From positions 1 through 33,957 of the forward strand of contig JAFIHF010000070.1 of the NCBI GenBank assembly GCA_017848855.1: a DNA stretch of 33,957 nucleotides. The letters are read 5' to 3'. Positions 11,575 through 25,313 of the stretch are shown here, in pieces (within the stretch, counting starts at the first letter, position 1; each line of letters begins with the position of its first letter). The notes beneath the pieces are model-generated. The model was not told the origin of the DNA. It made no database searches and saw only the letters and a list, made by a program, of their open reading frames with translations. This stretch comes from Rhodanobacter denitrificans. Its GTDB lineage: Bacteria > Pseudomonadota > Gammaproteobacteria > Xanthomonadales > Rhodanobacteraceae. A program made the translations under genes and the position numbers.

Positions 11575-12639
11575 ATGTCCGACGCCCTCACCTACCGTGC
11601 CGCCGGGGTCGATATCGACGCCGGCAATGCCCTCGTCGAACGCATCAAGCCGCTGGTCAAGCGCACCAGCCGCCCCGAGGTGATGGGCGGGCTGGGCGGC
11701 TTCGGCGGCCTGTTCAACCTGGGCGGCAAGTACCAGGAGCCGGTGCTGGTCTCCGGCACCGACGGCGTGGGCACCAAGTTGAAGCTCGCCCAGCAGCTCG
11801 GCCGCCACGACACCATCGGCATCGACCTCGTGGGCATGTGCGTGAACGACGTGCTGGTGCAGGGCGCCGAGCCGCTGTTCTTCCTCGACTACTTCGCCAC
11901 CGGCAAGCTGGACGTGGATACCGCCGCGGCCGTGGTGGGCGGCATTGCCAGGGGCTGCGAGCTGGCCGGCTGCGCGCTGATCGGCGGCGAGACCGCCGAG
12001 ATGCCCGACATGTACCCGCCCGGCGAATACGACCTCGCCGGCTTCACCGTGGGCGCGGTGGAGAAGTCCCAACTGCTTTCCGGCGACGCCATCGTGGCCG
12101 GCGACGTGGTGCTCGGCGTGGCCTCCAGCGGCCCGCACTCGAACGGCTACTCGCTGATCCGCAAGATCCTCGAGCGCGCCGGCAACCCGCTGGACCTCGA
12201 CCTCGGCGGCGTGAAGCTGGTGGATGCCCTGATGGCGCCCACCACCATCTACGTGAAGCCGATGCTGGAGCTGCTCGGCGCCGGCTCCTCCCGAGTCCCG
12301 AGTCCCGAGTCCCGAGTCCCGGCCATCCACGGCATGGCCCATATCACCGGCGGCGGCCTCAAGGAAAACATCATCCGCGTGGTGCCCGACGGCCTCGGCC
12401 TCGCGCTCAGCGCTTCGGCCATCGAACTGCCGCCGGTGTTCGACTGGCTGCAGCGCGAGGGCAAGGTGGCGCGCGAGGAAATGTGGCGCACCTTCAACTG
12501 CGGCATCGGCTTCACCGTGATCCTGCCGCACGACGCGGTGATCGCGGCGTCGGCGCTGCTGGCGAAGCACGGCCTGGCCAGCCGCGTGATCGGCGCGGTG
12601 GTGAACGCCAGCGGCGACGAGCGCGTCCATATCGGCTGA
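11575..12639 (+). CDS. purM: Phosphoribosylformylglycinamidine cyclo-ligase PurM
   Basis: A 354-aa enzyme making aminoimidazole ribotide, the fifth step of purine synthesis, with ATP. Seen: the [14 protein letters not shown] loop (about 58-71), [38 protein letters not shown] and [11 protein letters not shown], all family landmarks. Anomaly: between LELLGAGSS and [10 protein letters not shown] the gene carries four copies of a 7-bp repeat (12291-12321), encoding [11 protein letters not shown]. By memory of E. coli PurM this adds about 12 residues at that position. The inserted length keeps the frame, so the protein can still be made whole, but gain or loss of one 7-bp unit would frameshift it. 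The ATG at 11575 is followed by a normal N-terminus. purN follows 118 bp downstream. Confidence 0.95.
12291..12321 (+). repeat. Heptamer array (CCGAGTC, 4 units) inside purM
   Basis: Four perfect units of CCGAGTC plus a final CCG lie within the purM reading frame. The same array type, in one orientation or the other, is found at 15136-15180, 16451-16481, 25117-25147, 25227-25257 and 25263-25292, all intergenic. This is the only copy seen within a gene. Confidence 0.95.
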
Positions 12640-12652
12640 AACCCCTCACACA

Positions 12653-12738
12653 CCGTTCGCCCTGAGCGTAGACCCGAAGGGTCGGAGTCGAAGGGCCCTT
12701 CGACTCCGGCGTTGCGCGCCTACGCTCAGGGCGAACGG
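12653..12738. repeat. Nested palindromes between purM and purN
   Basis: Outer arms of 19 bp (12653-12671 and 12720-12738, containing TTCGCCCTGAGCGTAG and its complement) are perfectly complementary. Inside lies a perfect 24-bp palindrome at 12684-12707 (GGAGTCGAAGGG with its complement). The pattern resembles dispersed REP-type elements. There is no T-tract; it may slow or trim transcription between the two purine genes. Confidence 0.85.
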
Positions 12739-12757
12739 CGGCTAGCCAACGAACACC

Positions 12758-14321: not shown

Positions 14322-14429
14322 CGGGACTCGGGACTCGGACTGCGAAGGCAGGATGCCGTAGCGAACATCGGCGCAGCCGATGGCCCGCAGGGCGAGCCGC
14401 TGATGCGGCGAGTCACTCGGGACTCGGGA
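14322..14429. repeat. Degenerate heptamer copies after the DUF3108 gene
   Basis: Short runs of CGGGACT occur at 14322-14338 (about two units) and 14414-14429 (about two units), in the same orientation. They look like eroded or minimal versions of the longer arrays elsewhere. Nothing else is recognised in this gap. Confidence 0.7.
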
Positions 14430-15135: not shown

Positions 15136-15180
15136 CCGAGTCCCGAGTCCCGAGTCCCGAGTCCCGAGTCCCGAGTCCCG
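15136..15180. repeat. Heptamer array (CCGAGTC, 6 units) after murA
   Basis: Six perfect units plus CCG, the longest array in the window. It lies five bases beyond the murA stop codon and 12 bp before the start of the next gene (both on the minus strand). It is inverted relative to the array at 16451-16481, so the two flank murA. Confidence 0.95.
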
Positions 15181-15184
15181 GCCT

Positions 15185-16760
<1,576 letters not shown>

Positions 16761-25116: not shown

Positions 25117-25147
25117 CGGGACTCGGGACTCGGGACTCGGGACTCGG
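25117..25147. repeat. Heptamer array (CGGGACT, 4 units) after HPr
   Basis: Four units starting five bases after the HPr stop. It is inverted relative to the arrays at 25227-25257 and 25263-25292, so the transcript could fold into a long stem-loop closing an 80-base loop. Confidence 0.95.
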
Positions 25148-25226
25148 CAAAGCGGCTTCTCGCCAGCCTTGCCGCCCTTGGCACAGGCGAAGCCAAGCAG
25201 CCGATCGCCTGCCGGAAACTGCTCTA

Positions 25227-25313
25227 CCGAGTCCCGAGTCCCGAGTCCCGAGTCCCGGACGTCGAGTCCCGAGTCCCGAGTCCCGAGTCCCGGCCCCACA
25301 GTCCCGAGTCCCG
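25227..25313. repeat. Heptamer arrays (CCGAGTC) directly upstream of ptsI
   Basis: Two four-unit arrays (25227-25257 and 25263-25292) and one shorter stretch (25301-25313) run up to six bases before the ptsI ATG. The region has no purine-rich ribosome binding site. It is open in the ptsI frame from at least 25169, so the arrays could be translated as a SRVPSPE-repeat extension. Confidence 0.93.

Follow-up and report, generated by a model that had tools for sequence, protein, structure and literature searches.

In-frame insertion of a dispersed G-rich heptamer array in purM of Rhodanobacter denitrificans and its word at sites shared between genomes

The purM gene of Rhodanobacter denitrificans carries an in-frame insertion of four CCGAGTC units, which is one of many GGGACTC arrays in the same genome (G000; 3.49 Mb in 73 contigs), and at the sites shared with a second member of the genus (G014) the arrays are written in a different word. 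This in-step change of the word across the genome, at coding sites as well as at others, is what makes the finding interesting. We consider it probable that the purM array is a tolerated dispersed repeat whose frame is held by selection and whose word is rewritten by genome-wide homogenisation, with conversion as the presumed process and neutrality in PurM as a presumed property. The window referred to below is the whole stretch of DNA that was analysed (33,957 nucleotides).

The array in purM

The purM gene (phosphoribosylformylglycinamidine cyclo-ligase, 354 residues) occupies positions 11575 to 12639 of the plus strand; its product contains the Pfam domains AIRS (residues 57 to 162) and AIRS_C (175 to 349) and matched the PDB entries 9jzw and 1cli with E values of about 8e-124. 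The array interrupts the gene on the plus strand at 12291 to 12321, with four perfect CCGAGTC units at 12291 to 12318 followed by a partial CCG, and the G-rich (GGGACTC)4 is carried by the purM template strand. The four in-frame units reported in the initial annotation were confirmed by the sequence, by the TRF call (12289 to 12321, 4.7 copies, 100% match), and by a purM frame that was open across the array from 11575 to 12639. The insertion point is a loop between YVKPMLELL and a 10-residue block, and the array encodes a 10-residue peptide (PurM residues 240 to 249). By eye, GGCTCCTCCC at 12283 to 12292 (plus strand) resembles, in degenerate form, the edge motif (see below) that precedes C-rich arrays. 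In the predicted PurM model, which was weak (mean pLDDT of 60.5), residues 239 to 248 scored below 50, and this may be taken only as a hint, four other stretches being equally low. Between purM and purN, at 12660 to 12745, the window also holds a long inverted repeat (CCGTTCGCCCTGAGCG ... CGCTCAGGGCGAACGG); G011 has a similar one at this position, and in G014, G003, and G004 the interval is only 12 bp long.

The array was absent from purM in 28 of the 29 relatives aligned with G000, and the sole carrier was G014, with a PurM of 353 residues. Matched PurM lengths in the 28 array-free relatives were 342 or 344 in 22 cases and 338 to 349 in the remaining 6, and the net gain of the G000 protein over most of the genus was 10 residues. 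A phmmer alignment with E. coli PurM (1cli) gave 12 extra residues, in agreement with the figure of about 12 expected beforehand. When all 112 fetched purM loci were scanned (some genomes being counted twice, and two loci being pieces of one gene), arrays within purM were present in 2 (G000 and G014) and absent from 110; at a further locus (L103), an array was located after purM and not within it. A regular expression for the loop could read it at 84 of the 112 loci. In a separate comparison, the loop measured 17 residues in G000, 16 in G014, and 7 in seven other genus members. The initial annotation had called the array an insertion, had proposed the alignment of relatives as a check, and had named a loop of the same length in all relatives as the sign of an ordinary loop. 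The alignment and the 7-residue native loops rule out an ordinary loop, and the purM array is a true insertion.

In both carriers the array has exactly four units and is in frame. Because 7-base units run through all three frames in 21 bases, the array is free of stop codons in all six frames, and for that reason only its total length modulo 3 matters for the purM frame. The earlier argument that gain or loss of one or two units would shift the frame, whereas a change of three would keep it, was sound in this respect, and a hazard to the purM frame from changes in unit number is plausible in principle.

Arrays across the genome and inside genes

A two-unit probe with at most 2 mismatches gave 23 matches in the window, compared to a mean of 0.50 (largest, 3) in 100 shuffled sequences, which excluded a chance array. 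Apart from purM, the window contains two short GGGACTC arrays on the plus strand (14323 to 14336 and 14415 to 14429) that lie immediately past a stop codon, one on either side of a second dispersed repeat, a six-unit intergenic array on the minus strand (15138 to 15179), a four-unit intergenic array on the plus strand (16452 to 16479) whose ortholog in G014 has the word GGGATTC, and, on the plus strand at 25118 to 25310, a convergent pair of (GGGACTC)4 and (CCGAGTC)4 separated by 83 bp and followed by a four-unit array and a remnant. The second dispersed repeat (GCAGGATGCCGTAGCGAACATCGGCGCAGCCGATGGCCC...) directly adjoins GGGACTC arrays at 14338 to 14414 of the window, at three other G000 loci (L193, L200, and L210), and at one locus of G014 (L225). 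An Rfam search of the window at gathering scores gave no match.

In G000 as a whole, the exact two-unit probe gave 306 overlapping matches and its reversed control gave none. From stretches picked around array matches, rather than from the whole genome, 109 arrays of at least two units were counted, and the number may be too low, since contig C34 ends and contig C50 starts in or near arrays. These arrays comprised 427 units, namely, 411 GGGACTC and 16 GGGATTC, and GGGAATC was not found among them. Four units was the commonest length (65 of 109 arrays), and there were 33 convergent pairs and 43 single arrays. Imperfect units numbered 17 of 445 in G000 and 35 of 173 in G014; a looser count of decay (59 of 494 and 53 of 200, respectively) was set aside because the edge motif could score as a bad unit. 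This motif, GGnARAGC, whose consensus was drawn from the 109 G000 arrays and 48 G014 arrays, is often found 3' of the G-strand array, and its loose form was present at 75 of the 109 G000 arrays as a raw count. By eye, roughly 7 of the 20 arrays inspected in Xanthomonas and in other Rhodanobacteraceae had a recognizable copy, the rest having none or only a loose one, and an edge-like motif also adjoins the purL insertions in both G000 and G005. Among 15 genomes of the genus, the four-tract pattern occurred in 6, with 166 overlapping matches in G000, 18 in G014, 13 in G005, 10 in G008, 9 in G001, and 5 in G007. The array DNA was predicted to form a weak hairpin (-4.1 kcal/mol; z = -1.60).

The spacers of the convergent pairs did not behave as copies of one master element, in that wholesale copying was not seen in their matches. 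Of the 30 spacers that were at least 25 bp long after trimming, 7 had another match in the fetched DNA; for 6 this was an array spacer on the same contig, and for the seventh it was a different dispersed repeat. With all 33 whole spacers and a laxer cutoff, a few short matches (15 to 43 bp) to spacers on other contigs appeared. At L179 (contig C10, 21477 to 24190), four array pairs lie within 2.7 kb and have 75-bp spacers that are 83 to 87% alike, unlike most, and this sequence pattern suggests local copying of whole elements there.

Eleven of the 109 G000 arrays are intragenic, all in open frames; they fall in linkers or loops of eight genes' products. The initial annotation had stated that the array can enter coding DNA, which these cases bear out, and that it otherwise occurs only between genes, which holds for the window and fails for the genome. 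A GC3 frame screen of the 109 arrays yielded 11 candidates, of which L186 was dropped for want of a Pfam domain and to which a second nadE array in the same open frame was added; two arrays upstream of an M20 domain, in its open frame, were left out of the 11. With genes named from their Pfam domains, seven arrays fall between domains (one each in metH, purL, and valS and two each in an icmF-like gene and aceF, the second icmF-like array being one for which the first stretch of the next domain was not listed), and four fall inside a domain (one in purM, two in nadE, and one in an M20 peptidase). The arrays encode VPSPESR or GTRDSGL repeats, depending on the strand. Insertion relative to array-free relatives was demonstrated for three of the eight genes, purM, purL, and metH. 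In-frame insertions occupy the same place in G000 and G014 in purM, purL, and nadE, and in G005 also in purL, and their lengths and words differ genome by genome. Thus, the PurM loop reads PRIPNPESRIP in G014 and is a different 11-residue peptide in G000; the PurL loop is an 11-residue peptide in G000, NPESRIPNPESRE in G014, and a third version in G005; and in NadE, G000 and G014 each have a pair of arrays within an open frame, the spacers being different.

Word and history of the shared sites

To compare sites, G000 elements were placed in G014 by both flanks, using about 1.8 Mb of G014 contigs together with the array loci of G014, a set that was partly fetched for its arrays and is biased toward sharing. 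Of 70 elements, 37 were placed (22 shared, 3 degenerate, and 12 array-free) and 33 were unplaced; the array-free class was rule based, and by eye at least 2 of those 12 sites hold array-like DNA. The G014 site of L215, ruled array-free, appeared by eye to be a decayed array. The G014 site orthologous to L179:3262 (L162) holds a convergent pair of another, GGGGAAC-like heptamer, with GTTCCCC/ATTCCCC on the far side.

At the 22 shared sites, the G000 arrays contained 143 GGGACTC units and 1 GGGATTC unit, and the G014 arrays contained 76 GGGATTC, 3 GGGAGTC, and 1 GGGAATC units and no GGGACTC. When sites were aligned between the two genomes (17 sites and more), the outer flanks were conserved and the arrays had the same place and orientation; by eye, the spacers were mostly unlike. 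Coding DNA of the two genomes differed at 9% of 7,596 columns (91% identity). Point mutation acting on the sites one by one could account for uniform, genome-specific words only with great difficulty. Since the arrays are nearly uniform and each genome has its own word at the same sites, some homogenising process within genomes is therefore called for.

In the explanation that we favor, the purM array would belong to a dispersed family of G-rich heptamer elements, (GGGANTC)n, often with the edge motif GGnARAGC, mostly with n = 4, and often in convergent pairs. A copy would have inserted into a tolerant loop of PurM, with no function there being needed; such a stop-free array would survive wherever it adds a net length divisible by three, and the frame would be kept by purifying selection. 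Concerted evolution would then hold the arrays of one genome nearly identical, most likely through gene conversion between arrays or template-switch repair of breaks that the inverted G-rich arrays promote. Conversion or array-templated repair is the simplest known kind of process for this role and is, we infer, the most likely homogeniser, no event having been observed. The array would presumably be neutral for PurM, with selection acting only on frame and tolerance; because the arrays are homogenised, the word prevailing in the genome, rather than selection on PurM, would dictate the loop residues. In an unlikely variant, a dedicated homogeniser (for instance, drive-like conversion or templated synthesis of arrays) would bring all arrays of a genome to a single current word, and the switch from GGGATTC to GGGACTC, or the opposite one, would have altered the unrelated enzymes PurM, PurL, and NadE in step, so that the sequence comes from a drive at the DNA level and the frame comes from selection.

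Trees were built from purM, a 4-kb locus, and eight genes, and the carriers G000 and G014 were not sisters in any of them. By the eight genes, the nearest relatives were G011 and G007 for G000 and G003 and G004 for G014, and all four are without the purM array. If purM was entered only once, the array must then have been lost several times or passed between species. The site orthologous to window position 25118 holds a pair in G014 (GGGATTC) and in G001 (GGGATAC, on the G side) and is decayed in G005, and the element is absent from G011, G007, G003, and G004, in which 7 bp lie between the genes. The G001 array at this site (L409) consists of four GGGATAC units, yet another word in another species. 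The three purL carriers (G000, G014, and G005) have other sequence in place of the native DPRRDL codons, and simple precise excision elsewhere is therefore unlikely. Flank identities around the arrays gave no clear sign of recent exchange between species.

It is doubtful, in our judgment, that the insertions at the same codons arose independently, at hot spots hit separately by elements with each species' own word. Such a history would agree with the position of the carriers in the trees, with the clean native linkers of nearer relatives, and with the frequent gains or losses indicated by the 12 of 37 placed sites that were array-free in G014 by rule. However, it would require a repeat hit at each of 22 sites, in an unchanged position and orientation, and the carriers have junction sequence in common that the compared noncarriers are without. 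GCCGGCTCC precedes the purM array in G000 and G014; in purL of G000, G014, and G005, VTR...ESRE stands before IDL and CTC CCC codons follow, the CCC codon occurring also in the noncarrier G001. Because this junction sequence is common to the carriers in both purM and purL, the sequences make it likelier that the inserted piece had one origin than that it was inserted separately. Old presence with loss, interspecies gene flow, and repeated insertion are all possible.

Other explanations and known repeat systems

That the insertion was selected for an effect on PurM, for example, through a partner contact or stability, appears very unlikely. It was kept in two species, and PurM and PurL, which belong to one pathway, both have arrays; yet the same peptides are found in unrelated enzymes and from either strand, and the loop sequence follows the word of the genome. 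The low predicted confidence at residues 239 to 248 points the same way, as a hint only. Even less credible is the phase-variable switch suggested in the initial annotation, in which 7-bp slippage of one or two units would frameshift purM and turn purine synthesis on or off in a subpopulation. The unit length is indeed indivisible by three, and among the loci used to type Xanthomonas, related heptamer arrays show polymorphism (PMC6459536, PMC8002079). Nevertheless, both carriers (one genome per species) have exactly four in-frame units, and the same repeat, most copies of which are outside genes, lies in unrelated housekeeping genes (those with valS, aceF, nadE, metH, and purL domains). No association of the arrays with surface or niche genes was found, the Pfam domains being those of purM, purL, valS, nadE, aceF, metH, and others. 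Moreover, Rehm et al. thought phase variation unlikely for their repeats (PMC4692102).

If our reading holds, repeat homogenisation can impose amino acid replacements in concert on essential enzymes, which bears on the interpretation of loops and of insertions confined to single lineages in conserved proteins. The arrays also offer a testable case for the open question of the 2015 study, namely, what keeps such G-rich heptamers of four units in place in bacterial genomes. The purM copy would lend itself to use as a reporter, since a frame loss there is expected to cause purine auxotrophy. A literature search did not find the GGGACTC word or the word switch as published; the papers in which GGGACTC occurs as a whole word appeared unrelated, although such a search would miss tandem strings. 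For Rhodanobacter, heptanucleotide repeats gave no paper, and the papers on quadruplexes appeared unrelated. On the basis of this search and the available text of PMC4692102, the word and its switch appear to be unpublished.

A RAYT transposase was rejected as the driver because the presence of Y1 does not track array number over 15 genomes. A Y1 transposase match (PF01797) was found in 8 of the 15, with two in G000, one of which has an internal stop; G005 has 37 array starts and no Y1 match, and G010 has two Y1 matches and no four-tract array. REP/RAYT elements are dispersed and form convergent pairs with a variable spacer. The G000 arrays are likewise dispersed, with convergent pairs, and several of them lie, by eye, just 3' of stop codons, but no REP consensus was noticed in G000 and Y1 transposase does not accompany array number. 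MITEs have terminal inverted repeats and a target-site duplication; the convergent G000 arrays may act like inverted ends, and no duplication was evident by eye at the G014 sites without an array.

In-gene repeats of Borgs create peptide repeats that are often disordered, and all their in-gene units are divisible by three (PMC9879509); the G000 arrays also create peptide repeats, but their unit is seven and the frame rests on total length. Rickettsia palindromic elements, of about 150 bp, add conserved peptides in frame to unrelated metabolic genes (PMC10969869). They resemble the G000 arrays, which lie in eight open-frame genes, in their in-frame insertion into coding DNA, and they differ in that the G000 pieces are heptamer arrays or pairs with a species-specific word and mostly unrelated spacers. 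Xanthomonas heptamer VNTR loci have GGGATTC, GGGAATC, or CCGATTC units in strain-variable numbers, the arrays that vary being longer and made of related heptamers (PMC6459536, PMC8002079); they are mostly intergenic, and the two coding loci of X. euvesicatoria have 6-bp units, with which the frame is safe.

The closest comparison is with the G-rich heptamers GGGAATC and GGGGA(C/T)T described in Xanthomonas and Nostoc by Rehm et al. in 2015 (PMC4692102). Their search of Xanthomonas accepted only arrays with one or more GGGAATC units; because the word of G000 is GGGACTC and no unit is GGGAATC, we file the G000 arrays as a variant of these repeats and not as a member. Neither a species-wide change of word at shared sites nor an edge motif is reported in the available text of that study, which found 83% of sites common to both Xanthomonas species, Xcc and Xac. 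G4 folding was measured for the Rehm words; for GGGACTC, a simple G4Hunter-type score is lower (1.0 versus 1.14). In form, however, the 109 GGGACTC/GGGATTC arrays follow the tandem GGGANTN pattern of at least two units. Like the Rehm repeats, they have a 7-base G-rich unit, a preference for four units (65 of 109 arrays), convergent pairs (33), and a dispersed, mostly intergenic distribution, with an intragenic share of 11 of 109 compared to 11% in Xcc and 7% in Xac.
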